Positions 3 to 19,352 of a stretch of 43,244 nucleotides of DNA are shown here, piece after piece. Position 1 is the first letter of the stretch; each line of letters begins with the position of its first letter. The DNA is from Clostridium thermobutyricum (lineage in GTDB: Bacteria > Bacillota > Clostridia > Ch29), in the NCBI GenBank assembly GCA_016842005.1, contig JAENYD010000020.1, positions 1 through 43,244 on the forward strand, read 5' to 3'. The translations under genes were made by a program, and so were the position numbers. Under the pieces are notes generated by a model, which worked only from the letters and a program-made list of their open reading frames with translations, searched no databases and was not told where the DNA came from.

Positions 3-479
3 TCAGCAACTTCCTCGGATTAGATGAGGCAGTCTAATAACTTGTAAACTGGTGTCCCATAAAATAATATCGGCTTTGGCAAACTGTCTTGAATCCGAGT
101 AAAAATCTTTTAGCCACCCGTATAAACGCTCAGTTAATCTACATACCTCTTCAAATCCACTTTCCCCTTCATTTTCCATGCTCTCCAGCACCTGAAGGAA
201 AGTGGGCCCTTTTATATATTCCATGACAATATAATTTTCACCTGTATATTCTACTGCCGGGACTTTGACCCCTCTCTTATACAGGCCTTTCAGGAATTCA
301 GCCTCTTTGCCCAGCAAGCAGCTCCGTTCCGGCCTGAAAACCTTGACAACAAAATTCTTTTCATTGCCGTCAAAATAAACCGTCTTAATCCTGAACACCT
401 GATTCTTCTTACTCGGATATCTCTCATGTATAATACATTCAGCAACCCTGTATTCACCCATAAAGCCCCGGAGCATCAT
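3..479 (-). CDS. Truncated kinase-like protein (N-lobe only)
   Basis: This 158-residue product looks like the N-terminal lobe of a lipopolysaccharide-kinase or Bud32-type protein kinase fold. It has a beta-rich start, a lysine in the run NFVVKVFRPE, a glutamate-containing stretch after it, and a hinge-like IVMEYIKGPT. No catalytic loop (HGD or GDxxxxN) follows; the last 20 or so residues do not resemble the family and the frame stops near the window edge. It is therefore probably truncated or frameshifted. Its ATG overlaps the stop of the MobB-like gene (ATGA), so it is translationally coupled and is the last gene of the operon seen here. The kinase assignment rests on pattern only; substrate unknown. 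Confidence 0.5.
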   Translation of the reverse strand: MMLRGFMGEYRVAECIIHERYPSKKNQVFRIKTVYFDGNEKNFVVKVFRPERSCLLGKEAEFLKGLYKRGVKVPAVEYTGENYIVMEYIKGPTFLQVLESMENEGESGFEEVCRLTERLYGWLKDFYSDSRQFAKADIILWDTSLQVIRLPHLIRGSC

Positions 480-1231
480 CAGCCATTACCACCTATCTTA
501 ATTTCAATATTCGCCCCCGGTTTATATCCTTCCAGTTCCCTGACAACCCCTTCAACGGTATTAAAAAGGATATCCTGTACAAAGGGCACCATATCCACCT
601 CATGGCCGTCTATCAGAAGTTTTATTCTGCCCTGGGAAATGGAACACTGGGACCTGCGGGCCTCTCCTTTCAGAATTCTGGCTCCCAGTTCGCGGCAGGA
701 ATATCCGCATTCACCGCAGCACTCGGGAGGAAAGTCAGGCAGCTTTTCATAAACCTTTTGTTCAATAAGGTCCACAAGTTTGTCCGCACTATCAATCGAA
801 TTGATTACCGGGATATTTTTATATTCTTTCATGCTGTTGGCTATGCGCCCCGAGACAGCGAAAACGCTGTCATCCAGCCTCTCCTCAATTTCTTCTGTAC
901 TGTGGGCGGTAATGATTTTGGGTGCGTTAACATCAGTAACCCCTTCAAGGACCACATAATCATGATGATAAAACCGCAATATCTCTTCTATTGTCAGCAT
1001 CCTCTGAAACAGGATATCCGTTTCATAATACCCCCTGGCCGTGACCAGTTCAGACCCCGCCTCACGGTGCCGGAAAGTATTTGTACCTTCCTGGTCTATG
1101 GCAAAATCCTCAAAGTGTATCTCCTTGACCGAGCCCACCGAATACCTTCTCCTCTTGAGCTCCCTGATGATGTTCTCAATTGTGGTGGTCTTACCCGACT
1201 TGGTAATTCCGAAAACCGAAAAAACTTTCAT
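479..1231 (-). CDS. mobB: MobB-like P-loop GTPase with C-terminal cysteine cluster
   Basis: The protein starts with MKVFSVFGITKSGKTT, a P-loop at about residues 8-16, as in MobB, which helps attach nucleotides to the molybdenum cofactor. The motif VVLEGV near residue 95 fits a Walker B strand, and the conserved glycine-rich and histidine-containing segments of MobB follow the P-loop. Beyond the usual MobB length (about 170 residues) there is an extra domain with C171, C172, C175, C179 and C196, which could hold an iron-sulfur cluster or a metal. Such extended MobB-like proteins occur in anaerobes. It lies 23 bases after the EcfT gene and overlaps the kinase-like gene by one base. Its place in an ECF transport operon suggests a link to cofactor or metal use; the exact reaction is not certain. 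Confidence 0.72.
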   Translation of the reverse strand: MKVFSVFGITKSGKTTTIENIIRELKRRRYSVGSVKEIHFEDFAIDQEGTNTFRHREAGSELVTARGYYETDILFQRMLTIEEILRFYHHDYVVLEGVTDVNAPKIITAHSTEEIEERLDDSVFAVSGRIANSMKEYKNIPVINSIDSADKLVDLIEQKVYEKLPDFPPECCGECGYSCRELGARILKGEARRSQCSISQGRIKLLIDGHEVDMVPFVQDILFNTVEGVVRELEGYKPGANIEIKIGGNG

Positions 1232-1254
1232 CCTGTTCTCCCCCTGTTGTACAG

Positions 1255-1992
1255 TTATAGGTAATACACCGCCATGACTGTCGAAGTTAGAACAATACTG
1301 GATATAATCACCAGATAATCCCCGCAGTTCATTCTAAGCACCATGTAGCTGGTCCTGCGGGGAAATGCCCTGAATGCCCTTGTTTCCATTGCTGTGGACA
1401 GGTCCCTGGATTTTATCATCACCCCGGAAACAACAGGCATTATTAAGTAAGAGTATATTTTTATCCTTTCTTTCACCGGTATTTTATCAAGCTCTATTCC
1501 CTTAAGCTGCATGGCAACAATAACATTTTTTATCTCTTCCGCCAGCAGCGGCATGAATCTGACAGCCACCGACACCATGAAGGCTATTTCATACGGAACT
1601 TTCCACTGTACAAATCCCTGGATTATTTCCCGGGAATTTGAAGTTGTCATTATGGTTGCTGAAACAAGTATTATGGTCATCCTGAGAACAGTTACAACAC
1701 CTTTGGTCAGCCCTCCGGAGGTAAGCAGGTCAATACTTCCGATACTCAGCAATACTTTGCCCGCAGGTGAAAAAACACTCTGTATAACGGCTATGGCAAC
1801 AAACAACCATAATATCCTTTTCATTTTCATCACGACAGAAAAAAGCCTGCTGCCGAAACATACAGACAATAATATAGATGCTGCAAGCACACCTGCCAGT
1901 ATGTAAATATCCTGTATGAACACCCCCAGGGTAGAAAGACACAGGACAATAACAAGCTTACTCCTGGGGTCCAGTTTAGCAGCTGCGGTCAT
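1255..1992 (-). CDS. ecfT: ECF transporter transmembrane subunit EcfT (CbiQ family)
   Basis: A 245-residue membrane protein with several hydrophobic helices in the N-terminal half and a cytoplasmic helical section. The arginine-rich motif METRAFRAFPRR near residue 205 matches the coupling helix of EcfT/CbiQ proteins, which grips the two ATPases. I chose ATG 1992 because GGGGGTGA lies 8 bases upstream; the longer reading (GTG 2004) would put the start inside that ribosome binding site. It overlaps the end of the upstream ATPase gene by 17 bases, a sign of coupling. It should join the two ATPases and the S component encoded at 5355-5939 to make an ATP-driven importer in the cytoplasmic membrane. 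Confidence 0.88.
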   Translation of the reverse strand: MTAAAKLDPRSKLVIVLCLSTLGVFIQDIYILAGVLAASILLSVCFGSRLFSVVMKMKRILWLFVAIAVIQSVFSPAGKVLLSIGSIDLLTSGGLTKGVVTVLRMTIILVSATIMTTSNSREIIQGFVQWKVPYEIAFMVSVAVRFMPLLAEEIKNVIVAMQLKGIELDKIPVKERIKIYSYLIMPVVSGVMIKSRDLSTAMETRAFRAFPRRTSYMVLRMNCGDYLVIISSIVLTSTVMAVYYL

Positions 1993-2650
1993 CAATAATT
2001 TCACCCCCGGAAATTACAATTATGCGGTCAGCATGATGCCTGACAAAATTATTGTCGTGGCTTATCACTACCATGCCTATCCCCTTTTTCCCAAGGTCTT
2101 CCAGCATACCCGACAATGTCTTCTTTCTCTTGAGGTCCAGTCCGGTTGTAGGCTCATCCATTATCAGAAAACCGGGGTCATTTACCAGTATGGAGGCTAT
2201 GGCCAGCCGCTGCCTTTCCCCCCTGCTCAACCTGAGGGGGAAAGCATCCTTCAGGTGGCTGAGATGAAAAGCTTCCAATGCATCGGCAACTATATCATGG
2301 ATTTCCTTTTCGCTTAATCCTCTGAACTTCAGTGCAAGGGAAATCTCTTCGACCACCGATGGAGCAAAAATCTGGTGGTTTGGGTTCTGAAACAGGTATC
2401 CTATCCGCTTCCCTACCTCGCCCAGACTCATTTCCCTGCTGTCCCGACCGTTTATAAGCACCTGGCCTTTGACCGGCTTGAAGATACCTGAAATAAGTTT
2501 CCCCAGGGTGGTTTTCCCGCTGCCGTTAGGCCCTGTTATGGCAGTAAACTGATTTTGATATAATTTCAGATTTAAATCCCTCAAAACCCATTCACCCCGG
2601 GGATATCTGTAACTCACATTTAATAGTTGTATGTACGGTTGGATTGCCAT
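1976..2650 (-). CDS. ECF transporter ATPase (second ATPase, EcfA type)
   Basis: ABC ATPase of the CbiO/EcfA family. Visible motifs are Walker A GPNGSGKTT, a Q-loop in LFQNPNHQIF, signature LSRGERQR, Walker B FLIMDEPT and the switch histidine in VVISHD. The reading frame is open further upstream to 2707, but that would overlap the preceding gene. ATG 2650 (MAIQPYIQLL) has AAGGGGG just before it and leaves a 22-base gap, so I use it. It forms the ATPase heterodimer with the product of 2673-3359 and powers the EcfT/S-component complex. The Q-loop with NxxxQxF is typical of ECF ATPases. Confidence 0.88.
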   Translation of the reverse strand: MAIQPYIQLLNVSYRYPRGEWVLRDLNLKLYQNQFTAITGPNGSGKTTLGKLISGIFKPVKGQVLINGRDSREMSLGEVGKRIGYLFQNPNHQIFAPSVVEEISLALKFRGLSEKEIHDIVADALEAFHLSHLKDAFPLRLSRGERQRLAIASILVNDPGFLIMDEPTTGLDLKRKKTLSGMLEDLGKKGIGMVVISHDNNFVRHHADRIIVISGGEIIDDRSC

Positions 2651-2672
2651 TACCCCCTTAACTTGCAATGCA

Positions 2673-3359
2673 TCACAGGCTGCCATCGAAGCATTCCAGC
2701 CTTCCATCCCTCATCACCAGAACCCGGTCTGCAATATCCAGATTGTCCGGTTCATGCTCCACCATAATAACCGTCTTACCTGCATCTCGCAGACTCAGGA
2801 TTATATTCTTGATTGCTTTTTTCCCCTCTGTATCTATCTGGGACATGACTTCATCAAAAATCAATATTTCAGGCTGAAGACTCAACACCGAAGCCAGTGC
2901 AATGAGCTGTTTCTGACCGCCGGAAAGCTGGCAGGGATTGTTCAACCTGCTGTACTCCATACGCACCAGCTCGAGGGATGCTTTTATCCTGTCACCGATC
3001 TCTTCCCTATTGATGCATAAATTCTCGGGCCCGAATGCAATCTCGTCTTCTACGGTTGGTGAGAAGAGCTGGGTATCGGGGTCCTGGAATACGATGCCCA
3101 GTCTGGTAGCTATCTCGGGAATCCCCATCCCTGATATGTCCCTTCCCTGTATCAGCACCTTCCCCGATATTTTCCCACCAAAGACATGGGGGATTATTCC
3201 GCTCATGCAATAACACAATGTGCTTTTGCCGCTACCGCTCAGGCCCACTATCGCCAGTATTTCTCCCGGATCCACCCTCAGGTTTATCCCTTTAAGTATA
3301 TGAGTACTGCTGCCGGGATAGCTATAGCTTAAATCCTTTATTTCCACAGGTAATATCAT
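2673..3359 (-). CDS. ECF transporter ATPase (first ATPase, EcfA type)
   Basis: ABC ATPase with Walker A GLSGSGKST, Q-loop VFQDPDTQLF, signature LSGGQKQ, Walker B ILIFDEV and switch histidine in VMVEHE. Walker B ends in DEV rather than the usual DEP; the catalytic glutamate is kept. The start is placed at ATG 3359 (MILPVEIKD), which overlaps the TGA of the upstream gene as ATGA; the frame is open to 3392 but a start there would lie deep inside that gene. It pairs with the next ATPase. Both belong to the energy-coupling module and not to the substrate-specific part. Confidence 0.88.
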   Translation of the reverse strand: MILPVEIKDLSYSYPGSSTHILKGINLRVDPGEILAIVGLSGSGKSTLCYCMSGIIPHVFGGKISGKVLIQGRDISGMGIPEIATRLGIVFQDPDTQLFSPTVEDEIAFGPENLCINREEIGDRIKASLELVRMEYSRLNNPCQLSGGQKQLIALASVLSLQPEILIFDEVMSQIDTEGKKAIKNIILSLRDAGKTVIMVEHEPDNLDIADRVLVMRDGRLECFDGSL

Positions 3360-3868
3360 TGAAGCTCGATCTCCATCAGGAACTTGCACCACCTCTGACT
3401 GAAAGGGTCCTTACTTATTACCAGCTGGTAGGGACCGCTTCCCCCCTCCTCCTTTTTCCCCAGAGGTTCTCCGTCAAGTTTGTAGACTATGTATACATTG
3501 TCTTCTTCCATTGCTTCGTCCAGTGTCAGGGCCGAAGTATATCCGTCCACTGCCTTGGCTACTATCATACTCTTGCCTTCAATATCCACATCACAGGCTT
3601 CCAATACCGCTTTCAAAGGTACCCCTGTATACGTATGCCTGACAGGATCTTTCCCGCTTTTCTTCAGATTGGCCTCAAAATCCGTTTCTCCCAGGTCCCT
3701 GATAAAATCCATATCCACCTTTGCCACCTCATTACCTTTACTGGTTATCACCAAAAATGCCTTCTCCTGACTTTCATCCTTAAATGCAAGGTCCCCCCTG
3801 TTCAGGAATGCTGTCACTCCCACAACAACAGCCAGTACAATTACGGCAATTATTACCTTCCTGTTCAT
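3356..3868 (-). CDS. Membrane-anchored protein with a sulfite-oxidase-like domain
   Basis: A 170-residue protein with one N-terminal membrane helix (residues 4-22) and an extracytoplasmic domain. The pattern VPLKAVLEAC, then AVDGYTSALTLDEAM, then a YKLDGEPL turn and a final SGPYQLVISKDP strand resembles the SUOX (oxidoreductase molybdopterin-binding) fold. No cysteine sits where sulfite oxidases ligate molybdenum, so catalysis is not implied. It overlaps the stop of the preceding gene and the start of the ATPase gene by 4 bases each. Related domains occur in three other operon products, so it may bind the imported ligand. Function is inferred from context only. Confidence 0.55.
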   Translation of the reverse strand: MNRKVIIAVIVLAVVVGVTAFLNRGDLAFKDESQEKAFLVITSKGNEVAKVDMDFIRDLGETDFEANLKKSGKDPVRHTYTGVPLKAVLEACDVDIEGKSMIVAKAVDGYTSALTLDEAMEEDNVYIVYKLDGEPLGKKEEGGSGPYQLVISKDPFSQRWCKFLMEIELQ

Positions 3869-5358
3869 ATCTCTCCCTCCCCATCAGTTAATATGTACGG
3901 CACAATCATATCCCGGCATTGGAATTCACCATGGTCTCCTCCCTCATCGGTAGAATGCATACCATGGTCGGCCACTATGATTACCTTCCCTTCCCACCGG
4001 GAAATTAATTTTCCTATATAACCGTCAGTCCTGCTTATTGCCTTCATTGTCTCCTCACTCAGGTCTCCGCTGTTATGCCCGCTGTCGTCAATACCGTGGA
4101 AATGAACCGCCATTAGTCGGTACTCACCGTTCATGTTCTCCAGTGCCGTGTTCAGGATATCATCGTCAACAATACCGTTGGAATTGCTGTCAACATTAAG
4201 CCTGGGCTCTATTTCTGTATTCAGGATCTTTATATTCCCTTCTACCAGCAGGCTTTTTATACCCATCCTGGACGCAACTCCGAATATGGTCTCCTCATTG
4301 AGGTCTTTCTGTTGTCTTGAGTAAACACCATTGTCACAGGGAGGCTTGCCGGTAAACATAGCGGCCAGGCCGGCATTTGTCACAGGTGTGTATACGGTAG
4401 ACACAGGCTTTGCCATAGGCAGACTCTTCAGGACCGGTGCATACCAGTTGTCAACTGCATGACGGTACTGGTGGTATCCGAAACCATCCAGTATTATGAG
4501 CAGCACTTTTTCATCCTTTTCCAGGAAATGGACTGTATCATGGTAGGTGTCCATAATGCTCCCTGCCGGAGGGTCTTTCATGATACCCCTTACACCCTTT
4601 ATCCTGTTCTTCAGATCAGGATAAACATAATCAACGCTGTTCCCCTTTAGTTCAAGGTATCCGTCCGCATCCGCCCTTCCGTATGACCCGTTGTCTCCCA
4701 TTATAAGCAGGCTGCCTCCTGAAACATCGGCCAGTTCGCTGACCTTCAACAGCCTCCTGCGGGTAAGTATTCGGACCTGGTTGGTTTTGCCTTCTCGCTC
4801 CACCGAAGATTCTCCTTCAAACAGGGGATAATCAATGAATGCCCTTGAATATAACTGTCCTGGCGTCACCGTACCCAGATCGTCAACAGGAGTAATCAAG
4901 CTGACTTTGTTCCCGGCATTAGCATTCTTTGCCACCACCACTATTTCCTCTATTCTTTTGATATTGCTGCTTACCGGATGATTGAAGTTTACCGCTTCCC
5001 ATGCATTTTCACCTGTGAAGAGGATAAAACATCCCTCCAGGCTGTTGCCATCCAGACAGGCAGTAAGTCCGTCATCCCCCCGGAACAGGATTTCATATCT
5101 ATCGGCTAAAGGCCCGGCTCGGGAGACAATGTCAGCAAGGGCGGCAGCCTTTTGTTTCTTGCCATCATGCTCTATATCCGACACGGGTACATTCTCAATA
5201 TTCTTCAAAACAAAAGTATTCTCCACATCCCCTGTTATAGTCAGGAAGGGGACAAAACCGGAAGGTTGCCGGTTAAATACCGGCTGAACCATATACATGC
5301 CAATGAACACTCCCAATAAAACAAATACGGCCGCACCGGCTGTTGCTTTCCATTTCAT
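3865..5358 (-). CDS. Membrane-anchored alkaline-phosphatase-superfamily protein
   Basis: A 497-residue protein with an N-terminal membrane anchor (residues about 5-25), a domain of about 130 residues that again looks like the sulfite-oxidase-like fold, and a C-terminal alkaline-phosphatase-superfamily domain (from about residue 275). Metal-site motifs are VLLIILDGFG, TPVTNAGLAAMFTGKPP with the candidate nucleophile threonine, the VHFHGIDDSGHNSG segment and VIIVADHGMH. The family includes type I phosphodiesterases, phosphoglycerate mutases and sulfatases. Placed outside the membrane in an ECF importer operon, it may dephosphorylate or cleave a ligand before uptake. The substrate cannot be told from sequence. 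It overlaps both neighbours by 4 bases. Confidence 0.72.
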   Translation of the reverse strand: MKWKATAGAAVFVLLGVFIGMYMVQPVFNRQPSGFVPFLTITGDVENTFVLKNIENVPVSDIEHDGKKQKAAALADIVSRAGPLADRYEILFRGDDGLTACLDGNSLEGCFILFTGENAWEAVNFNHPVSSNIKRIEEIVVVAKNANAGNKVSLITPVDDLGTVTPGQLYSRAFIDYPLFEGESSVEREGKTNQVRILTRRRLLKVSELADVSGGSLLIMGDNGSYGRADADGYLELKGNSVDYVYPDLKNRIKGVRGIMKDPPAGSIMDTYHDTVHFLEKDEKVLLIILDGFGYHQYRHAVDNWYAPVLKSLPMAKPVSTVYTPVTNAGLAAMFTGKPPCDNGVYSRQQKDLNEETIFGVASRMGIKSLLVEGNIKILNTEIEPRLNVDSNSNGIVDDDILNTALENMNGEYRLMAVHFHGIDDSGHNSGDLSEETMKAISRTDGYIGKLISRWEGKVIIVADHGMHSTDEGGDHGEFQCRDMIVPYILTDGEGEI

Positions 5359-5939
5359 TTTTTTGCCTCCTCATGTTCAGGGTTAATGATGCTCATCTTC
5401 CTGAACTGCTTTATAACGCTGTAGGCAATTATGCCTCCCAGTCCCCCTGACAGGGCAGCACTGCTGAGACAAAGAATCAGCGGCACCAGGGGCAGCCTGA
5501 AAAATACCAGATTCACCAGAAATGTACCGCTCACATTGGCTGCTATGCCGGATATAAAGCAGCACGGCATACAGCACCCCCTGTGCCTCATGATTATTAG
5601 TACGGCATCTATGGCCAGGCCGGGTATTATGTATGTAAAAAAACTCATAATTCCATGGGTGCCGAATATCCCCAGTGAAACTATCATTATTGCCTGAACC
5701 ACCGATATGAGGGTTGCGGTCTCTCTCCTGCCCACCAGCCCTGCTCCCATGACTATCCACATCATATAGAAGCCTCCGGCGATAACACCGCCGGGTATAT
5801 ACAAAGGCCCGGTAATAATATGGGCAAGGGGAACCACCACCGGCTTTACAGCTATGCCCAGGGCTGCCATCATGGCTATTACCACAAGGTTAAACATACT
5901 GAAGCCGGCCATAAATTTTCTGAATGCCATCAGTTTCAC
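5355..5939 (-). CDS. ECF transporter substrate-binding membrane subunit (S component)
   Basis: A 194-residue, very hydrophobic protein with about six membrane helices. The pattern of a small integral membrane protein with a glycine/proline-rich first half (VKPVVVPLAHIITGPLYIPGG) in an operon with two ECF ATPases and EcfT identifies it as the S component, which binds the substrate. It does not match the S components for thiamin, riboflavin, biotin or folate as I remember them. Two adjacent cysteine pairs (GCCMPCC) in the middle are unusual and could bind a metal or form disulfides. Substrate open: a metal, a pterin or another cofactor precursor. Confidence 0.72.
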   Translation of the reverse strand: MKLMAFRKFMAGFSMFNLVVIAMMAALGIAVKPVVVPLAHIITGPLYIPGGVIAGGFYMMWIVMGAGLVGRRETATLISVVQAIMIVSLGIFGTHGIMSFFTYIIPGLAIDAVLIIMRHRGCCMPCCFISGIAANVSGTFLVNLVFFRLPLVPLILCLSSAALSGGLGGIIAYSVIKQFRKMSIINPEHEEAKK

Positions 5940-5946
5940 TCCCCGG

Positions 5947-6423
5947 CTATTTAACTACTTCTATCCTGACAACGTTTTTAATCCACCACTTGGCGCTCTC
6001 CCCCTGAACTACAAGCTGCACAGGGGCCGCGTCTCCTTCAAGCTCTTTCCCGTCGACTTTCAGTCCCAGTATGGTGCCATCCCTCTCAACCATTTCAGGG
6101 GTATACTCCCTCGAGTAGCCGTCGCGGGCTTCCACAACCACAGTACTGAACTCTCCTGCGCCTGCATATTCGAGCACCTGTTTCAGCGCCACCCCGACCC
6201 ACTGCTGCTCGGTCTCGCTTCCGTCACTTTTCTGCAGCACGGCGGTAATATCAACCGTTCCCACCTTTTCTACATCAAGGTCGGTGAATTCCACACTGTC
6301 ACCCTCAACCCCATCGATAGTAATAACCCATGCCGGCTCCTGAAGGGCAGTCTGCTGCGGAGCACATCCCGCCAATGATACCACCAGCGTTATCAGTAAA
6401 AGCATACTTATAACTTTTCTCAA
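5947..6423 (-). CDS. Lipoprotein with a single sulfite-oxidase-like domain
   Basis: A 158-residue lipoprotein: the signal peptide ends in the lipobox LAGC at residues 17-20. The rest reads like the SUOX fold: VGVALKQVLEYAG, ARDGYSREYTPEMV, a LKVDGKEL turn, VQLVVQGESAKWWIKNVVRIEV. In sulfite oxidases the same strand ends in KWLTRIEV. The only cysteine is the lipidation site, so there is no molybdenum ligand. It ends 7 bases before the S-component gene. It probably acts as a surface ligand-binding partner of the importer; this is inference. Confidence 0.62.
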   Translation of the reverse strand: MRKVISMLLLITLVVSLAGCAPQQTALQEPAWVITIDGVEGDSVEFTDLDVEKVGTVDITAVLQKSDGSETEQQWVGVALKQVLEYAGAGEFSTVVVEARDGYSREYTPEMVERDGTILGLKVDGKELEGDAAPVQLVVQGESAKWWIKNVVRIEVVK

Positions 6424-6582
6424 TTATATATACCTCCTTGCTTATTTGATTGTCTATCCGATGGCTTACCGCCGCTAATACTCCCGTCCTCTTAGGCAGG
6501 AAATAAGCGGCGCTACGCGCCTGGATAACGATTTCTAAGCTTCATACGGGGTTAAAATCCCACCTTAAGCCAGGAATCCTGT
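6424..6582. other. Structured gap inside the operon, possible IS200/IS605 end remnant
   Basis: A 159-base gap in an otherwise tightly packed operon. It holds a perfect small hairpin (GGCGC TAC GCGCC, 6509-6521), an enclosing stem CCGCT/AGCGG (6472-6476 with 6506-6510) and a GGGGTTAAAATCCC loop region near 6555-6570. The layout resembles the right-end and guide-RNA part of IS200/IS605-type elements, but no tnpA or tnpB is present. It could instead be an internal regulatory RNA. No family was recognised with confidence. Confidence 0.3.
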
Positions 6583-7329
6583 TTATCTAAGTCTCTTAAA
6601 TACCTGCCGGACACTGCCTTCGAGGGAGAGCCCTCCCCCGCCTTCGCTTGCAATCCGCAGTACTCTCTGCGGGTCTATCACTTTGACTCCGGCGAGTAAA
6701 CTTACGCCATAATCTCTGAAGATATGGGGGCAAAGGGTTGCTGTAGGCCCCATAACGGCTATTTCCCTGGCACCTGTGCATTTCTCCAGTATGTGGTCGA
6801 TAGTCTTGTTCAGAAGAGTAGTACCGGTAATAAGTACCACATCACACCGGGGCAGATATATGTCCTCGGCCCAGTCGGGATACAGGTACTTATCATCTGT
6901 GATATTGCGCTCAAATATGAATATTCTGTCCGTTTTATCCGCCACTTTATCAAGAACGGGCTTGAAGTATCCTATCATGCCCAAAGTATCATCCGGCCTT
7001 ATATCTATCTGAGAGAAGGCATCGCCTCGGGTAAACCCTTCAAGGTCATCCTGGTAAATTGCATTGATTGCAGCAAGACCGGCAGCAGCCCTGACAAGAT
7101 TTGTGCTCATAGCCCATTCTATGATATCACTACAGCTGATACCGGTCACATTCCCCGCCTCTTCCACCAGGCCGCATTTCGGACCAAGCTCATTCCTGAA
7201 GGTGAAAGTCAGGCCGCAGCTGCCATTATCAAGAAGTACAGCTGTATATCCAATGCCCACCCTCAAATCTTCAATCTTTCTTTCTGCAGCCTTATCCCTT
7301 ACACCGTCAATAAGCCTCTGTACAATCAT
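6583..7329 (-). CDS. DUF4213/DUF364 putative heavy-metal chelation protein
   Basis: A 248-residue cytosolic protein with two parts: an N-terminal enolase-like DUF4213 section (GIGYTAVLL to about residue 95) and a C-terminal Rossmann-like DUF364 section (LGMIGYFKPVL, then VLITGTTLLNKTIDHIL and MGPTATLCPHIF). Family members are linked in the literature to metal handling and sit in metal or cofactor transport operons. The start is ATG 7329 because GGGGAG lies 5 bases upstream; the frame is open to 7347. In this operon it may receive the imported metal or cofactor. That role is inference from position. Confidence 0.8.
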   Translation of the reverse strand: MIVQRLIDGVRDKAAERKIEDLRVGIGYTAVLLDNGSCGLTFTFRNELGPKCGLVEEAGNVTGISCSDIIEWAMSTNLVRAAAGLAAINAIYQDDLEGFTRGDAFSQIDIRPDDTLGMIGYFKPVLDKVADKTDRIFIFERNITDDKYLYPDWAEDIYLPRCDVVLITGTTLLNKTIDHILEKCTGAREIAVMGPTATLCPHIFRDYGVSLLAGVKVIDPQRVLRIASEGGGGLSLEGSVRQVFKRLR

Positions 7330-7373
7330 AATATCTCCCCTTTTCAATCAACAGCTGCCGTCTATACCGGATA

Positions 7374-8483
7374 CTACTCAACTGCGCTGATTGACAGCAG
7401 GCCCTTGACTGTAGTATTCTTGGGGAGTCCGTCAAAGCAGGTTCTCACATGGCCACTATTGTCAGCATATACTATCCCCTTTGATATGTCTTCTGCAGCC
7501 ACCTCTACACTGTATCCATCCGAAGCAGTAAATCTGTACATACCGGCTTCCGCCATACCCGTTTCTGCAAACAGGTCTGCAATGGAGATACCTTCCTTAT
7601 CTCCTGCCTTTCTTTTTTCAAAGACTTCCGCACTTTTCCCGGCAGAAACAAAAGCATTCTCTCCATAAGAGAACCACAGTATATTCTTCACATACATGCC
7701 CTTTGGAATGTCCGGCGACAGGAAGACAGGCGCATCTTCACCGGTATACTTTATGTATCCTGATTTAAATATCTCTGTCTGCTCGTTTTTCTCAAAACCA
7801 TCCGCAGCCTTCATAAACACAGTATTTACTGTTTTATCTTCCGTACTGCCTGTCAAGTCATTAACCTTTACTGCCCTGTCCAGACTTTCATAATATGTAT
7901 ACTCTTCACTGGGCACACAGGATATTTTTGTTTCCAGGAAATATATGTTTTGGGTCGCTAATTCGCTGCTCTCCCCCAGGATTTCTATTCTTGCAAGATT
8001 CCTCACCCAGTACATGGCCCTTTCGTCAGGTATTATTATTCTTAAAGGTTTGTCTTTGTCCTCCAGGGGTTTACCGTTAATAGTGTGTGCAAGGATAACA
8101 TCCCTTGCCTTTAAAACTTCACCCGGTACCTCTATGGAATAACCATCTCCCGCAATTAATCTTATAGCGAACAGCTGCGATTGCCTTTTATCGTATTTGA
8201 CCAGCAGGTCCGCAAGCAAAGGCCCTGTCACCGAATAATTGGTCTTGTTGCCGGCAGAATCAATTGCCACCGCATCCATGGTAACTGACTCCATGCTCTT
8301 TAATTCTTCAATAGTTACATCAACCTCTCCACCATCCAGCCCCGCTATTGTAAATTTCTCCACTGCCGTTTCACTCTCAGTCCCTTTCCCGCCTGTATCT
8401 GCTGCATTTGAACACCCCGCAAGAACCAGCATAAGCACCAGAACAAGTGCTACCGGCTTTAATGTTCCCTTATTCTTTCCCAT
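7374..8483 (-). CDS. Lipoprotein with two sulfite-oxidase-like domains
   Basis: A 369-residue lipoprotein: signal helix VALVLVLMLVLAGC with the lipid cysteine at residue 23. Two tandem domains of about 140 residues follow. Domain 1 shows LLADLLVKY, AGDGYSIEVPGEVL, HTINGKPLEDKDKPLRIIIP and MYWVRNLARIEIL. Domain 2 shows the same order in weaker form (ISIADLFAETG, TASDGYSVEVAAEDI, near residues 300-340). Cysteines outside the lipobox lie between or after the domains, not at the usual molybdenum-ligand place. It overlaps the FMN-binding gene by 14 bases. It is the largest of the four secreted proteins with this fold in the operon. Confidence 0.62.
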   Translation of the reverse strand: MGKNKGTLKPVALVLVLMLVLAGCSNAADTGGKGTESETAVEKFTIAGLDGGEVDVTIEELKSMESVTMDAVAIDSAGNKTNYSVTGPLLADLLVKYDKRQSQLFAIRLIAGDGYSIEVPGEVLKARDVILAHTINGKPLEDKDKPLRIIIPDERAMYWVRNLARIEILGESSELATQNIYFLETKISCVPSEEYTYYESLDRAVKVNDLTGSTEDKTVNTVFMKAADGFEKNEQTEIFKSGYIKYTGEDAPVFLSPDIPKGMYVKNILWFSYGENAFVSAGKSAEVFEKRKAGDKEGISIADLFAETGMAEAGMYRFTASDGYSVEVAAEDISKGIVYADNSGHVRTCFDGLPKNTTVKGLLSISAVE

Positions 8484-8940
8484 TAATATTAACCTCCCTT
8501 TTTATCCGGTTATAGTTCGCCATACATATATTAACTGTATCCAGTACCGCTCTGCTGCTACAGGTAGCCCCCGTGATTGCTACCACCTCTTCCGGTGACC
8601 TTGCCGAAATCTTAACCAGGGCAAGCTGCCTGTCCGTACTTTTCCCCCCGAACCTGTCCAGGAACCACTCTTCGGACAGATATGCCCCATAATCCTCGGA
8701 CTCGTGATGTTCAAGCACCTTGACTTCTTCTACAATGTCCTGCCCTGTATCTATAATAACCAGAAGCTTTATTGTATCTTTAAATCCTTTTTCGTTTACT
8801 ATCTGGATTATGGTCCTGTTCTCACCATCGCTTTTTTCAACAAGATACACTCCCTTGTATACTATGAGCAGCAGCCGATTTGGAGGTAAATTTCCAATTC
8901 GGAAGTTGCTCATATTGTTTTTTGAAAACTTAATAAACAC
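8470..8940 (-). CDS. FMN-binding domain protein (RnfG/NqrC-type), possibly 5'-truncated
   Basis: A 156-residue product with the FMN-binding domain seen in RnfG, NqrC and related flavoproteins: GFKDTIKLLVIID, then VKVLEHHESEDYGAYL, and the terminal ITGATCSSRAV, which matches the SGATxS motif where flavin is attached to threonine. Such domains are normally exported, but no signal peptide or lipobox is visible and no good ribosome binding site lies before GTG 8940 or ATG 8913. The 5' end may have been lost where the repeat region begins. It is the first gene of the operon, which suggests a redox step outside the membrane. Confidence 0.66.
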   Translation of the reverse strand: MFIKFSKNNMSNFRIGNLPPNRLLLIVYKGVYLVEKSDGENRTIIQIVNEKGFKDTIKLLVIIDTGQDIVEEVKVLEHHESEDYGAYLSEEWFLDRFGGKSTDRQLALVKISARSPEEVVAITGATCSSRAVLDTVNICMANYNRIKREVNINGKE

Positions 8941-9606: not shown

Positions 9607-11237
9607 TAGACCCCAATATTTATGCAAATGAGGTAGATGCTTAAGTTTAGCGGGTTGTGCGAATTAAGCAGCTATAGATTTAACAGAACGGATTTTATCT
9701 ATAGCCCCCATACGGTATGCCAGTAAAACAGTAATAAGATGCGCAGCACCAGCCATAAAGAAATCTGCCTTGATGGTTTTGCGGTCTCTAGCCCGGAGAT
9801 TACCAAGCTGTAGAGGAAGTTTGAGCCTTGAGATAACCTGCTCAATGATATGACGAAGTCCTGCTATTTGATTCCATTGCTCTGTATCTCTAGGGATAGG
9901 GGTATGAGCTCTGTAATTATCTTTGGGATATGTATAAAACATTCTGCCACAATCGGAAGTTGTACATTTATCCTCGCAGGAGCAAACATATTTGCCACCA
10001 GGTAACTTTTTAGTTTTAGGGCAAATAAACTTATTCCTAAAGGAACGGTTTTTACCTTTACAAGAGCCATCCCATTTCATTGGAAGAGATGGGTCCTTTG
10101 GACAGGTAGGGATGCCATTTTCATTAATTCCTGGTTTGCCGAAATCTTGTCTGGTATTGCGAGGATTAAGAGCAATAACAGGCAGTATACCATGATTCTC
10201 AAAGAGGTATTGATAGTTGGGAACATCATCGAATCCCGAATCAGCAGTCATAGCATAAATATTAAAGTCATGATGATGCTCAAAGAAGTTTTCCATAGCA
10301 GGTATAAGCAGTTTTCCATCCCATGTAAGTTTAACTTCTTCAGGGGATGAAAGCTCAGAATTATCGGTGGTATTATCATTAAAATCCGGTTGGAAATCGC
10401 AAAAGTCCATATGTCTTAGAATACCGAGAGCATTGGACACCGCTATAGTTTTGTGAGCATAACAGAAAGTGCCATTGATATATTGCAATTTAATATTAGG
10501 GTCAACAGAAGCAGTTTTAGGCATTTGATTATAGGCCATTTTATAGATGTCTTCTTTTGACTTGTCCTTGTTAAGGTATTGAAGCTTTTTAACAAGAGCA
10601 TTAAAGAATTTGGGGTTGTTTTCCTTAACATAGCATTCAATACCAGTAGTATCCATAATATAAACTTCAGCAGGATTGATGTCTAATTCTTTTTCAAGGG
10701 CTTGGCCAATTTCCTGACAAATGGGTTCAGTAATATCAACTAACTTATGAAAGAAAGCTTCAATGTCATCACAGTAATCCTGTTTGAACCTTGAGTAAAA
10801 AGAAGCGTCAGGGACGGTATTAAGCCCACAAAAATCACGGAGTTCTTTTGAAAAGGACAAAAAAGTAATAAGCAAACCAATAGTTGGTATAGATAGTAAC
10901 TTTTGCAGCAGTAAAGTTGAAATAATTGAATCGAGAGAGTTATCATGAGGGCGACCAGTAGCTTTATTATAGTGGAAATACCAATTTACAGGGATTAACT
11001 CACAAATATTAATATACTGGTCAAGAAGTTGAAGTAACTGTGGTTTTTGAACAACAACAAATTTATGAAAATCATCAATAAAATCAGAAAAATGAAGTTG
11101 TTTTATCATGCAGGATTTCCTTTCGTTTTGGTTAGATTTTGAATATTTGGTACAATATATAATTCGACAAAAGTGGAGGAAAATCCTGCTGATATATAAA
11201 ATAAAACCCTTTAAAATCAAAGATTTTGGGGTTTTAC
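9607..11237. mobile_element. IS4-like insertion sequence (approximate limits)
   Basis: The element carries one transposase gene on the minus strand. A weak inverted match was found between about 9607 (TAGACCCCAATATTTATG) and the reverse complement of 11221-11237 (GTAAAACCCCAAAATCT). No target duplication could be read, so the limits are estimates. The right edge lies directly against the IS110-type gene. Confidence 0.4.
9664..11109 (-). CDS. IS4-superfamily DDE transposase
   Basis: A 481-residue transposase. Catalytic acids are likely in MDTTGIE (first D), MTADSGFDD (second D) and IEQVISRLK (E), the usual pattern of the Tnp_1 DDE fold. A cysteine-rich stretch (CSCEDKCTTSDCGRMF) before the last motif resembles the zinc-ribbon insert of IS1182-like and related transposases. 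I start it at ATG 11109 (MIKQLHFSDF), with AAAGGAAAT upstream; the longer frame to 11220 lacks a binding site. The gene looks complete, so the element may be active. Family placement within the IS4 superfamily is uncertain. Confidence 0.8.
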   Translation of the reverse strand: MIKQLHFSDFIDDFHKFVVVQKPQLLQLLDQYINICELIPVNWYFHYNKATGRPHDNSLDSIISTLLLQKLLSIPTIGLLITFLSFSKELRDFCGLNTVPDASFYSRFKQDYCDDIEAFFHKLVDITEPICQEIGQALEKELDINPAEVYIMDTTGIECYVKENNPKFFNALVKKLQYLNKDKSKEDIYKMAYNQMPKTASVDPNIKLQYINGTFCYAHKTIAVSNALGILRHMDFCDFQPDFNDNTTDNSELSSPEEVKLTWDGKLLIPAMENFFEHHHDFNIYAMTADSGFDDVPNYQYLFENHGILPVIALNPRNTRQDFGKPGINENGIPTCPKDPSLPMKWDGSCKGKNRSFRNKFICPKTKKLPGGKYVCSCEDKCTTSDCGRMFYTYPKDNYRAHTPIPRDTEQWNQIAGLRHIIEQVISRLKLPLQLGNLRARDRKTIKADFFMAGAAHLITVLLAYRMGAIDKIRSVKSIAA

Positions 11238-11274: not shown

Positions 11275-12522
11275 ATGTCTAACCCTTTGTTTGTCGGTAT
11301 TGATGTAAGCAGCAAGGACAATGTGGTCTGTTGTCTGACTAACAATGATGAGAATAGACCCTTATGCAGATTTACTGTCCTTAACAACCGGCCCGGTATT
11401 TTGGAGCTTAAGGAACGGATCAACCGGTTAGTGCAAAATCATAACTTCACCGAAATACGTTTCGGGCTTGAACATACCGGCTGTTACTCTACCCATGCGG
11501 CCATGTACTTACAACGTCATCTGGACTTCGGTTGCCCCAATGTCAGGGTATACATGTTTAACCCCAGCCTCATTAAGGAGTTCAAAAAGGCTCATTTCCT
11601 GGATGCTCCTAAAAATGACAGGGTCGATGCCTGGTATATCGCTTCCAAGCTTATGGCCGGCCACCTGCCTCATCCTTTTACCTGGAGTGAGCCTATGATG
11701 GCCCTACAGAGGCTAACACGGGCCAGATACCATCTTATGCAGGCCCTGGTACGGGAAAGCAATTTCCTTATGACCAACCTGTACCTAAAATGCAGTGATT
11801 ACACGCTTGCTTTTGATAACAAGCTGTCTGCTACCTCTTTGGCCGTCATGGAAGAGTTTGAATCCGCAGAAGCCCTTGCAGAGGCTTCCATGGACGAGCT
11901 TACCCAATTCCTGATCCAGCATGGTAAGAACCGGTTCGATGACCCTGGGGCTGTAGCCAGGGAGCTACAAAAAGCTGCCCGTTCTTCTTACCGATTGCCT
12001 AAGGCCATGGCTGATTCGGTCAATCTGGCTATGGCCTCCAGTATTCGGGTTATCAGGACGATCCAGGAACAGCTGAAGTCTCTAAAGAAGGCCATTGAAG
12101 ACCATTTAAAAACTATTCCTCAAACACTGGATTCCGTACCTGGTATCGGCCCCATCTTTGCCTCCGGTATCCTGGCTGAAATCGGTGATATCCACCAGTT
12201 TGACAGTCACAAACAGCTGGCCAAGTTCGCAGGCCTGGCTTGGACACAGCACCAATCGGGAAATTTTACTGCCAGTCAAACTCGACTTATTCGTTCAGGC
12301 AATCGCTTTTTACGCTACTACCTCATAGAGGCGGCTGACAGTGTCAGGATGCACGACCCTGTCTTTGCCGAGTACTATGCAATGAAAAAAGCGGAGCCTA
12401 AGCAATTTGCCCATAAACGTGCCCTTGCGCTTACTGCCCGGAAACTGGTTCGATTGGTCTTTTGTCTGCTAAAGACTAATCAACTCTACCAGCCGAAAGG
12501 GGGAAACCGACATGATAGTTGA
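11275..12522 (+). CDS. IS110-family transposase (RNA-guided recombinase type)
   Basis: A 415-residue transposase with the two-domain IS110 layout: an N-terminal RuvC-like DEDD domain (FVGIDVSSKD, FGLEHTGCYS, DAPKNDRVDAWYIA) and a C-terminal Tnp_20 domain (VPGIGPIFASGILAEIG, then LIRSGNRFLRYYLIEA). IS110 elements use a bridge RNA from their non-coding ends to pair donor and target DNA. AGGAGGTGA lies 7 bases before the ATG. Upstream there are only about 37 bases before the IS4-like element, too short for a typical IS110-group left end, so the guide RNA may be at the 3' side or the left end may be lost. Confidence 0.9.
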   Translation: MSNPLFVGIDVSSKDNVVCCLTNNDENRPLCRFTVLNNRPGILELKERINRLVQNHNFTEIRFGLEHTGCYSTHAAMYLQRHLDFGCPNVRVYMFNPSLIKEFKKAHFLDAPKNDRVDAWYIASKLMAGHLPHPFTWSEPMMALQRLTRARYHLMQALVRESNFLMTNLYLKCSDYTLAFDNKLSATSLAVMEEFESAEALAEASMDELTQFLIQHGKNRFDDPGAVARELQKAARSSYRLPKAMADSVNLAMASSIRVIRTIQEQLKSLKKAIEDHLKTIPQTLDSVPGIGPIFASGILAEIGDIHQFDSHKQLAKFAGLAWTQHQSGNFTASQTRLIRSGNRFLRYYLIEAADSVRMHDPVFAEYYAMKKAEPKQFAHKRALALTARKLVRLVFCLLKTNQLYQPKGGNRHDS

Positions 12523-12600: not shown

Positions 12601-12851
12601 TTTAGTGATGCCTTTTTTCGGCATACACCTCCTTTGTAGCAGCAAATTCCTAAAAAAAATTCCCAGTTAGCACTTGACATCACACCGCTGCTCTCAATGT
12701 TTCTACCCTCATAGGCCTTTAATCGGGATACCTGTTCACTTCCCTTTATCACACCGTTGACAGCATCAGGAATATTCCCCACCGAACAGGATACAAGCAT
12801 TAAAACCATTACTATCCCGGCACCCAACCTGTTTTTGTATATGCGTAACAC
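12597..12851 (-). CDS. Small putative lipoprotein, C terminus probably altered
   Basis: An open frame of about 84 residues with an N-terminal signal-like segment (R/K-rich start, then GAGIVMVLMLVSC with a lipobox-like LVSC). The mature part is short and not recognised. The ribosome binding site ACGGAGG at about 12850-12856 is well placed for a codon ATA at 12842, not for ATG or GTG, so either a rare start is used or the original ATG has mutated; GTG 12851 overlaps the binding site. The final residues run into the IS110 flank (stop at 12597), so the original 3' end may be lost. A folded leader and promoter lie upstream. Confidence 0.4.
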   Translation of the reverse strand: MLRIYKNRLGAGIVMVLMLVSCSVGNIPDAVNGVIKGSEQVSRLKAYEGRNIESSGVMSSANWEFFLGICCYKGGVCRKKASLN

Positions 12852-12957: not shown

Positions 12958-12984
12958 ATAGATAAGCAAATCGGTTAATTTATT

Positions 12985-13098
12985 ACTGTATCCCCTTTCC
13001 TCACTGGGAGGCATGGCCGTTTCCAGCCATACCCTGACGGTCCTGTATCCATAGCCTACTCTGCCTCAGGTAATACAGGCTCGGAGATATGCAATTGT
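12985..13098 (-). ncRNA. Folded 5' leader, riboswitch-like, family not recognised
   Basis: Between a promoter (13105-13133) and a terminator hairpin (12936-12957) lies about 110 bases of structured sequence on the minus strand. CCTGTAT (13042-13048) pairs with ATACAGG (13073-13079). A second hairpin with ATGGC/GCCAT arms (13013-13017 with 13025-13029) has a purine-rich loop GGAAACG in the RNA. The order promoter, folded domain, terminator, coding gene is typical of riboswitches. It lacks the core motifs of c-di-GMP-I, SAM, TPP, cobalamin and glycine riboswitches. Confidence 0.45.
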
Positions 13099-13104
13099 AA
13101 TTAT

Positions 13105-13133
13105 ATTTTAAATTATTGTTATATGCTTGTCAA
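13105..13133 (-). promoter_or_regulatory. Sigma-A type promoter for the structured leader
   Basis: On the minus strand TTGACA (13133-13128) and TAAAAT (13110-13105) are separated by 17 bases, with AT-rich spacer. Transcription would start near 13098, directly before the folded leader. Confidence 0.65.
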
Positions 13134-14663: not shown

Positions 14664-15092
14664 GTGGATCAAAACAAGATGGTGGAAAATGTCATCCAGA
14701 AGAAAAGGTTACTTCAAAAGTATTACGAAATGGCTTGCCATAACTTGATGTGCTATTCCAGGAATTATCTCATGGAGCTGGAGCAAAAGGAAGGATTCGA
14801 GACTGAATGGAAACAGGCTAATGAAGAGTGCTTATTGCTGCAGGAAATGATGGATGAACTGGATGCCCAGGGACAAAAAGAAGCTGCTCAAAAAGTACCA
14901 GTTCATGAGCAGCTGAAAGTGGTCACAGTATATAGCCCAGGGATAATAAGTTTTGGCAATATATTCAGACACAGCCTGCTATTTAACTACATAGGCAGTA
15001 AGCTTAAAATCCATCATGCAACAAATGACCGTATCCTGATTTTTGACTTAGAAGACAAGTTTATTGGTGAAGCAACGGCTGTCGAGAATTAA
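14664..15092 (+). CDS. Early phage protein with a MuA C-terminal-like barrel segment
   Basis: A 142-residue protein with GTG start and GAGGAG 9 bases upstream. Residues 1-75 are helical and charged. Residues about 105-138 (YIGSKLKIHHATNDRILIFD, then LEDKFIGEA) resemble the small beta-barrel at the end of the catalytic core of Mu and IS30-like transposases, where the pattern is a valine-rich strand, a D/R turn, then a GxFIGEA-like strand. It lies ahead of the MuA-like gene in the same operon. It may be a regulator of transposition or a stray domain. The similarity is judged by eye. Confidence 0.45.
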   Translation: MDQNKMVENVIQKKRLLQKYYEMACHNLMCYSRNYLMELEQKEGFETEWKQANEECLLLQEMMDELDAQGQKEAAQKVPVHEQLKVVTVYSPGIISFGNIFRHSLLFNYIGSKLKIHHATNDRILIFDLEDKFIGEATAVEN

Positions 15093-15337
15093 TCATCGTT
15101 GGAGAAATCAACAAAATCAGGAACATTACTTTCATCAAGTTCACCAAGCGTTTGTTCAATAAATTTTCTATTTATGTAAGAACATGCTTCCTGAAGTTCG
15201 GTTCCGCTGATTATACCTTTATCAATCAAGACTTTAGCAAGTGCTTTAGCATATAACTCATTGGCACAAAGTTTTGTTGTTAATTCATTAATCAGCGGGG
15301 TTTTGCTCATAAAGTCTACATACTTTTCTTTCTTCAA
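15089..15337 (-). CDS. Small protein on the opposite strand of the early operon
   Basis: An 82-residue protein read leftward inside the rightward early region. TTG 15337 is chosen because GGAGG lies 8 bases upstream; the frame is open to 15352. Composition is mainly helical (ELTTKLCANELYAKALAKVL). No family recognised. It overlaps the 3' end of the neighbouring gene by 4 bases, so the two are convergent. A leftward promoter was not identified. Confidence 0.55.
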   Translation of the reverse strand: MKKEKYVDFMSKTPLINELTTKLCANELYAKALAKVLIDKGIISGTELQEACSYINRKFIEQTLGELDESNVPDFVDFSNDD

Positions 15338-15395
15338 AATAATCACCTCCATCTATATATTTTACCACGGGAGGTATGTAAAAAGGAGTGAGGTC

Positions 15396-15542
15396 TTGAA
15401 ACATGGCAAGAGGCCCACAAGGGCGCAGAAAATCAGGATTAAATCAAAAGGATTAAACCCGAACAACTGGCTTGTAGTGAAGGACTGTAAAGAGTGTTTT
15501 GAAGTGGTTCACAGGATTTCAGGAAAAACAAGAAGGTTATAA
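15396..15542 (+). CDS. DUF6906-like small phage protein
   Basis: A 48-residue basic protein beginning MKHGKRPTRAQKIRIKS and ending in HRISGKTRRL. This is the pattern of a small family found in Firmicutes phages (KHGKRPTREQK, GLNPxNWLVVKD, SGKTRRI). It starts at TTG 15396 with AAAGGAG 8 bases upstream. Role unknown. It lies between the opposite-strand gene and an Xre protein. Confidence 0.75.
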   Translation: MKHGKRPTRAQKIRIKSKGLNPNNWLVVKDCKECFEVVHRISGKTRRL

Positions 15543-15560
15543 CTGAAAGGAGGATGCTTG

Positions 15561-15776
15561 ATGCAACGCAAAAGACAGCTGACACCCTTTGGCATGTTGG
15601 TCAAGAAAGCACTCATTGACAAGGGTATGACCCAAATTCAACTTGCAGCAGAGGTTGGAACAAGCGACAAGTACCTCAATCTCATTCTATATGGGGACAG
15701 GTCGGGAGACAAATACCTTGTAAGTATCGTAAGGGTGCTTGGTCTGGATCCTGAAGTATTAAAAGAAATAGCGTAA
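15561..15776 (+). CDS. Small Xre-type helix-turn-helix regulator
   Basis: A 71-residue Cro-like protein: KGMTQIQLAAEVGTSDKYLN forms the helix-turn-helix. ATG 15561 is used, 7 bases after AAAGGAGG; a TTG three bases earlier is also possible. Position before the transposase gene fits a Ner- or Cro-like early regulator that turns down early transcription or the repressor. Confidence 0.75.
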   Translation: MQRKRQLTPFGMLVKKALIDKGMTQIQLAAEVGTSDKYLNLILYGDRSGDKYLVSIVRVLGLDPEVLKEIA

Positions 15777-15789
15777 GGGAGGAATAGGT

Positions 15790-16128
15790 TTGAAGAATAT
15801 TGATGATTTTATTCTTGAGCTGAATAACTTCAAGGCTAAGATGGGTTTAGGTGAGGATAATCCCACAGATAAATATTTTACAACAGATGACAATAACGAA
15901 AGGGTTCTTATTCTCGACCTTATTCTTAAGAGGAAGCAAAATGAACTGAAGAGTAAGGCAAAGCAGATCCAGGAGGAGATTGAGAGAGAAATCAATGACT
16001 TCTTTGACTATCTTCATATGAAACAGGCAAGTATTGAAACGCTCCATGGTATAAACACCTATATCCAGGGCGAAACCGAGAAGGTTGAAGAGATGATCAG
16101 CAAAATCAAGGTGATGAAAGGCGAATGA
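15790..16128 (+). CDS. Coiled-coil early phage protein, unknown
   Basis: A 112-residue acidic and lysine-rich protein with TTG start after GGAGGAA. Residues 45-75 (KRKQNELKSKAKQIQEEIER) predict a strong coiled coil. No family recognised. It lies 13 bases after the Xre gene and is cotranscribed. Confidence 0.6.
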   Translation: MKNIDDFILELNNFKAKMGLGEDNPTDKYFTTDDNNERVLILDLILKRKQNELKSKAKQIQEEIEREINDFFDYLHMKQASIETLHGINTYIQGETEKVEEMISKIKVMKGE

Positions 16129-16143
16129 CCGGAGGGATGAAAA

Positions 16144-16314
16144 ATGGTTGGAGGTAAAGGAAAAGAGCGCCCAGCCCACAAGCAAAAACGCTCTTTACCA
16201 AATAAACTGATGAAAACCTTCATCTTCTCTATTGTATCACAGCAGATTACAAAGTGTAAGGGGGGAAGGATTTGGCTGAAACGTTTGTCACGCTTGAAGA
16301 AGCTGCTGAGCTAG
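16144..16314 (+). CDS. Possible 56-residue basic peptide overlapping the transposase start
   Basis: ATG 16144 follows GGAGGG by 7 bases and opens 56 codons rich in lysine and arginine, ending inside the transposase gene at 16314. A hairpin AAAGAGCG/CGCTCTTT (16160-16197) lies within it, so this stretch may serve as control of transposase synthesis by translational coupling instead of making a stable protein. Confidence 0.3.
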   Translation: MVGGKGKERPAHKQKRSLPNKLMKTFIFSIVSQQITKCKGGRIWLKRLSRLKKLLS

Positions 16315-18335: not shown

Positions 18336-18363
18336 AAAATATTAGAAAAGTGAGGGATAAGAA

Positions 18364-19332: not shown

Positions 19333-19352
19333 AAATGATTGGGGGTATATCG

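Follow-up and report, generated by a model that had tools for sequence, protein, structure and literature searches.

The operon described here lies on the minus strand of a 43,244-nucleotide stretch of Clostridium thermobutyricum DNA (assembly GCA_016842005.1, contig JAENYD010000020.1; the whole stretch is called the window below). It combines an energy-coupling factor (ECF) transporter with secreted and anchored proteins carrying sulfite oxidase-like (SUOX-like) domains, a nucleotide pyrophosphatase and a MobB GTPase, and it probably encodes a salvage importer for the molybdenum or tungsten cofactor (Moco or Tuco). We lean, with less confidence, towards import of the intact, metal-loaded cofactor, in which case a carrier without Moa and MoeA proteins would live on scavenged cofactor, a shared "vitamin" of anaerobic communities. 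The gene set and its conservation, the riboswitch, the SUOX/PruR fold lacking a molybdenum ligand, the pyrophosphatase family and the retention of molybdenum/tungsten (Mo/W) enzymes and MobA were all determined in silico.

The gene set is conserved across genomes

An earlier reading made from the letters alone (the sequence-only reading) had named a coupled operon with an ECF importer, SUOX-like proteins, MobB and DUF364. All these genes were found between 8940 and 479 on the minus strand, overlapping or with short gaps. The operon extends beyond 479 into an APH/RIO-type kinase gene (3-479) that is broken off by the contig end. This gene had been overlooked, as had the riboswitch, the splitting of the first gene and the third domain of the 369-aa lipoprotein.

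As judged from sequence, the operon holds what is expected of an ECF transporter, namely two ATPases (A1 and A2), a CbiQ/EcfT-type T component and an S component. A1 and A2 match TIGR04520/04521 with E-values of 1e-64 to 1e-51, but with scores under the curated cut-offs, while the T component matches PF02361 (E 2e-28). The putative S component is a small hydrophobic protein of 194 aa with a match to PF09819 (E 5e-12). Sequence searches among solved structures gave no meaningful match for either the S component or the kinase.

A scan for the S component with one genome per species gave 242 relatives, and 80 loci were fetched and compared. The approximately 80 loci with a conserved core come from Clostridia, Halanaerobiales and a few Dehalococcoidia. 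The gene order FMN_bind, SUOX1, (SUOX2), S, pyrophosphatase, SUOX3, A1, A2, T, MobB, kinase recurs in most of them, which places the set far beyond chance; the genes are co-located in many genera and not only in the window. Counted by best hits in the 80 loci, A2 was found in 72, T in 70, A1 in 67, SUOX3 in 60, MobB in 52, SUOX1 in 51, the pyrophosphatase in 47, the kinase in 35, FMN_bind in 22, SUOX2 in 17 and DUF364 in 3. The low counts mark FMN_bind and DUF364 as accessories, and the ECF core, SUOX3 and MobB as central. Genes of the tup type lie near some of the operons.

Several loci carry additional genes. In L014 the gene that opens the operon behind the Moco riboswitch (L014:11780-19084) codes for a surface protein of 2434 aa, which is anchored to the S-layer and contains propeller repeats as well as a PF00174 domain. 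The ECF genes of this operon are the usual ones, and ApbE and a Gx-type protein belong to it too; relatives of this surface protein occur in many loci. Additional members of the operon in the G003/G004 lineage are ABC genes of the FecCD/BtuF type and a TiaS-like protein of 249 aa (L010:3977-8646), to which the G003 copy adds an FmdE-like protein. A distant S component of the PF09819 family was found with a methyltransferase, NTPase_1 and a LysR/ModE-type helix-turn-helix gene (L017:5465-7711), and perhaps represents a sister subfamily.

The operon belongs to the Moco riboswitch regulon

An aptamer of the Moco/Tuco family RF01055 lies upstream of the window operon, though separated from its main part by insertion sequences, and the operon thus belongs to the Moco riboswitch regulon. 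This is the RNA family of the regulon described by Regulski et al. (2008, PMC2408646), and the available part of that source links Moco aptamers without P3 to Tuco. The lipoprotein frame directly after the aptamer matches the N-terminus of intact FMN_bind homologues, and the remainder of the gene is found at 8856-8488. The sequence-only reading was thus right about an FMN-binding domain, but what it had seen is only the 3' fragment of a gene whose other half lies at about 12851-12645. As the two halves are separated by an IS110 and an IS1182-like element, the first gene is broken and the riboswitch severed from the operon in this genome. In genomes G002 and G003 the operon is intact and directly preceded by the riboswitch.

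We built a covariance model from eight riboswitches and ran it on 1.26 Mb of relatives' loci. It found 62 riboswitch copies in these S-component loci, where about two would be expected from the density in the window's genome (4 copies in 2.6 Mb). The riboswitch was upstream of the operon in 50 of the 63 loci with enough upstream sequence. For seven loci, all from carriers with neither MoaA nor MoaC (Moa-less carriers, see below), Rfam's own model confirmed it. Three Moco riboswitches stand in tandem before the S operon at L086:8183-8649, and pairs were seen in L030, L083, L088 and L070; tandem Moco RNAs were already known in Syntrophomonas wolfei (PMC2408646, as far as available). The regulon targets named in the available part of the same source are moa, mod/tup and Mo/W enzyme genes, and an ECF operon is not among them.

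Carriers without cofactor synthesis retain Mo/W enzymes

We searched 53 genomes with the S component (carriers) and 25 class-mates without it for MoaC, MoaA, MoeA, MobA, PF00384 (dimethyl sulfoxide reductase/formate dehydrogenase) and tungsten aldehyde oxidoreductases (AFOR). MoaA and MoaC were both absent in 18 of the 53 carriers (G003, G065, G067, G069, G070, G071, G076, G082, G087, G088, G092, G094, G097, G099, G102-G105), and 16 of these 18 also lack MoeA, which is kept only in G087 and G099. All 18 have PF00384 and/or AFOR enzymes; PF00384 includes subunits without molybdenum, such as NuoG, and most of its matches here are formate dehydrogenase-like frames of about 900 aa, many with an in-frame TGA. 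By comparison, such enzymes were found in 0 of 21 class-mates lacking both the S component and MoaC (Fisher p 1.6e-11). Carriers without synthesis thus retain Mo/W enzymes, as expected for a Moco/Tuco importer.

Full-length MobA is present in 15 of the 18 Moa-less carriers and lies within about 2.5 kb of a formate dehydrogenase gene in 12. With MoaA, MoaC and MoeA gone and MobA kept, the steps up to metal insertion have been lost and the step after it retained. The riboswitch precedes the S operon in 16 of the 18; lacking an outside supply of cofactor, these cells could offer it no ligand. One Moa-less carrier, G102 (locus L096), has a complete chromosome and a selenocysteine-type formate dehydrogenase, and assembly gaps cannot account for its losses. 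On the tree of the S component the loss of Moa requires 8 (starred branches) to 11 changes, which indicates repeated losses. An even draw from the class gave 393 genomes, of which 16 had a strong S match and 377 had none; AFOR was found in 15 of the former and 36 of the latter (p 1e-13).

The window's genome has a Moco riboswitch before moeA-moeA-moaA-moaC (G000:C20:39591-34788), from which it follows that the cofactor is made by the organism itself. With de novo synthesis intact, this genome has a putative salvage operon in decay, its first gene split by insertion sequences. Another Moco riboswitch stands directly before an AFOR-family tungsten enzyme gene (G000:C7:133137-131748). MoaE (PF02391) was tried as a marker of molybdopterin synthesis and found uninformative, since even clostridia with MoaA and MoaC seldom give a match to it, and then a weak one. 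In most such genomes no MoaE is recognisable, and their molybdopterin synthase seems to be another or a very divergent one.

The extracellular domains resemble PruR

Profile-profile comparison, together with an AlphaFold model for the 369-aa lipoprotein, gave at least six SUOX-like domains: three in the 369-aa protein and one each in 5947-6423 (SUOX2), 3356-3868 (SUOX3) and the N-terminal part of the phosphodiesterase. In the profile-profile comparison the latter three group with the domains of the 369-aa protein. The sequence-only reading had counted five; the fold was borne out, and the count had to be raised. For a candidate seventh domain in the phosphodiesterase (residues 148-264), the profile comparison gave 47% against the domain next to it and about 0-3% against the others; it was not counted. 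The anchored SUOX protein also matched a viral VP30 domain in Pfam, a weak match that was judged to be chance.

The predicted structure of the 369-aa lipoprotein (pLDDT 88) finds its best solved matches in sulfite oxidases (E 1e-7) and in PruR (7KOM, TM 0.75 by target length; 7KP2, 0.72), and sequence profiles agree with the SUOX/PruR assignment of the extracellular domains; the fold is thus not an unrelated one. A SUOX molybdoenzyme requires a cysteine as metal ligand; no conserved cysteine was found in the mature domains of the A4 or A5 SUOX-like proteins, and for the domains examined this agrees with the earlier statement that they are without a molybdenum ligand.

PruR is a SUOX-fold pterin binder without the molybdenum cysteine, as shown experimentally (PMC13259868). 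Its structures (7KOS, 7KOM, 7KP2) share with the operon's domains the SUOX fold, the missing ligand cysteine and secretion, and an alignment pairs the tyrosine of a DGY motif in the operon's anchored protein with a tyrosine in Vibrio vulnificus PruR. Unlike PruR, the operon's chains have up to three domains each. The partners differ as well, being cyclic di-GMP or kinase regulators for PruR in Proteobacteria, whereas the domains seen here belong to lipoproteins or anchored proteins encoded together with an ECF transporter. No DcpA/DTB-type regulator was seen among the annotated genes of the operon neighbourhoods, in which most flanking genes are unannotated.

The alkaline-phosphatase-like enzyme of the sequence-only reading is present, and its family can be narrowed, as both sequence and fold place it closest to nucleotide pyrophosphatases/phosphodiesterases. 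Among 28 sequences D291, T327, D424, D464, H465 and H476 are invariant and H428 nearly so. From what is known of the family, we take these seven residues to be a putative bimetal site and threonine nucleophile. Nucleotide pyrophosphatases split nucleotide-phosphate anhydrides, the bond type in molybdopterin guanine dinucleotide (MGD) and molybdopterin cytosine dinucleotide (MCD), and the anchored enzyme may act on these.

A proposed route of cofactor salvage

By analogy to PruR, the secreted and anchored SUOX-like proteins might bind cofactor that is free or released from proteins. The anchored pyrophosphatase would split the dinucleotide forms MGD and MCD, removing GMP or CMP and leaving the pterin in its mononucleotide form. 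Together with A1, A2 and T, the PF09819 S component would then carry the metal-loaded molybdopterin into the cell, where MobB and MobA, the latter encoded elsewhere in the genome, could rebuild MGD for formate dehydrogenase. AFOR enzymes would use the nucleotide-free form, which fits G003, where AFORs are present and MobA is absent. The kinase might rephosphorylate a dephosphorylated pterin, although this is a guess. Once the cell holds enough Tuco or Moco, the riboswitch would turn the operon off, and in carriers with their own synthesis import would be a supplement that is off when cofactor is plentiful.

Alternative explanations

The sequence-only reading had suggested that molybdopterin, a pterin or a metal complex is taken up or salvaged. 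The riboswitch, the likeness to PruR and the carriers with a pathway gap speak for this suggestion in general, and the substrates it covers are not equally likely. PruR binds metal-free pterins (PMC13259868), and the two Moa-less carriers that keep MoeA fit an importer of metal-free pterin (molybdopterin, precursor Z or a degradation product) with metal insertion inside the cell. Since the remaining 16 lack MoeA and yet have Mo/W enzymes, and mostly MobA, we regard such an importer as unlikely. Import of molybdate, tungstate or a metal-chelator complex, with the riboswitch present because the metal is needed for the cofactor, appears quite improbable: carriers without MoaA, MoaC and MoeA would gain nothing from the metal, having no pterin to go with it, the fold of the extracellular domains is one that binds pterins, and the nucleotide pyrophosphatase would have no role. 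Moco riboswitches do also sit on molybdate/tungstate transporters, and DUF364 is annotated as metal chelation. The neighbouring tup genes can be read both ways, as a link to oxyanion uptake and as separate Tup-type importers already beside some of the same operons.

A further substrate to consider is another vitamin-like compound, such as a thiamine precursor (YkoE-type) or flavin for FMN_bind, whose importer would merely be under Moco control. PF09819 is annotated as a cobalt/YkoE-type permease family, and FMN_bind and, in L014, ApbE with the Gx-type protein are within the operon. We hold this to be very improbable, as it leaves the riboswitch and the pathway gap unexplained, the S component matches no solved ECF S-component structure by sequence, and most relatives miss the FMN_bind gene that flavin import would serve. 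The SUOX-like proteins might instead be redox or signalling proteins that sense pterins, with the transporter only co-occurring, given that PruR acts in pterin signalling in Proteobacteria (PMC13259868). This is hardly credible for a set in which the SUOX3-like protein stands amid the ECF operon in 60 of the 80 loci, which Moa-less carriers keep together as a whole, and beside which no DcpA-type partner was seen among the annotated minority of flanking genes.

Several points weigh against salvage of Moco/Tuco itself. Free Moco is unstable, and the cofactor is generally regarded as too unstable for exchange between cells. Most carriers still make the cofactor. In the class draw, loss of MoaC among AFOR-positive genomes was not commoner with the S component (2 of 15) than without it (4 of 36, p=1), and four of the six genomes with AFOR and no MoaC have no S component, so the importer is not the sole route, and other routes or incomplete bins have to be assumed. 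Many carriers are metagenome bins, in which a single missing contig can mimic loss because moa and moeA are clustered. The scheme does not account for the FMN_bind protein, DUF364 or the kinase. The pocket of PruR is thought to be too short for Moco (PMC13259868).

Comparison with known systems

We class it as an ECF system for which a new substrate is proposed. It shares with ECF vitamin importers the two ECF ATPases, CbiQ-type T component and small membrane S component in one operon, and also the upstream cofactor riboswitch, a classical sign of these importers, which were themselves discovered through riboswitches (PMC3766115). It differs from them in that multiple extracellular binding proteins, a pyrophosphatase, MobB and a kinase are part of the operon. 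In the literature searched, no ECF transporter or other bacterial importer for Moco/Tuco is described, nor any system with this gene set, in agreement with the sequence-only reading, which knew of none.

Caenorhabditis elegans takes up ready-made Moco by an unknown transport mechanism (PMC9793310). As in the scheme proposed here, cofactor from outside is used when the animal's own synthesis is lost, but no bacterial importer is involved. Prokaryotes with molybdenum enzymes and an incomplete Moco pathway have already been noticed as orphan molybdoprotein organisms, for which the accessible part of PMC6147048 offers new biosynthesis or molybdenum independence and proposes neither import nor a transporter. 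Should the salvage importer be real, it would explain part of these organisms, make Moco/Tuco a vitamin-like public good among anaerobes and form a bacterial counterpart of the uptake in C. elegans. An as yet unassigned ECF S component and a group of SUOX-fold lipoproteins would gain a likely function, and there would be a route for delivering cofactor to cells. The proposal is directly testable in cultured carriers without Moco synthesis, such as Anaerosalibacter massiliensis ND1 and Clostridiaceae bacterium M8S5.

Features of the window

Table 1. Putative salvage operon, its regulatory region and the inserted elements, in window coordinates.
Feature	Position	Strand	Remarks
Sigma-70-like promoter, TTGACA-17-TAAAAT	13105..13133	-	just upstream of aptamer; 11/12 consensus matches; consensus match only
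Moco/Tuco riboswitch aptamer RF01055, P3 stem missing	12976..13098	-	Rfam, 67.9 bits, cut-off 36
Two intrinsic-terminator-like hairpins	12957-12936 and 12923-12892	-	likely expression platform
5' half of FMN_bind lipoprotein gene (signal peptide, lipobox)	12645..12851	-	tblastn with intact homologues, E 1.7e-4 and 3.5e-4
IS110-family transposase within split first gene	11275..12522	+	PF02371 2e-25, PF01548 6e-20
IS1182-like transposase (DUF772/DDE) within split first gene	9664..11220	-	
3' part of FMN_bind lipoprotein gene	8470..8940	-	homologous part 8856-8488; TGAT(C/S)S flavinylation-type motif
Lipoprotein, 369 aa, PF00174, three SUOX-like domains	7374..8483	-	domains ~40-170, 172-275, 272-369; without Mo-ligand cysteine
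DUF4213/DUF364 protein	6583..7347	-	lineage-specific member; in 3/80 relatives
PF00174 lipoprotein, one SUOX-like domain (SUOX2)	5947..6423	-	
ECF S component, PF09819	5355..5939	-	proposed specificity subunit
Anchored nucleotide pyrophosphatase/phosphodiesterase, N-terminal SUOX-like domain	3865..5358	-	seven putative metal/catalytic residues kept
Membrane-anchored PF00174 SUOX-like protein (SUOX3)	3356..3868	-	adjoins ECF genes
ECF ATPase A1	2673..3392	-	
ECF ATPase A2	1976..2707	-	
ECF T component, CbiQ type	1255..2004	-	
MobB GTPase with FeS domain, PRK14494 type	479..1231	-	
5' part of APH/RIO-type small-molecule kinase gene	3..479	-	homology ends after "ILWD" motif at contig end

Elsewhere in the window, a Mu-like transposase (DDE_2/Mu-transpos_C), a TniB-like ATPase and an Xre repressor at 14664-19802 mark where a Mu-type prophage or transposon begins. 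Open frames on the plus strand run from this region to about 40 kb. A UPF0236-family gene, transposase-like, was found at 41463-42845 (PF06782, E 7e-93).

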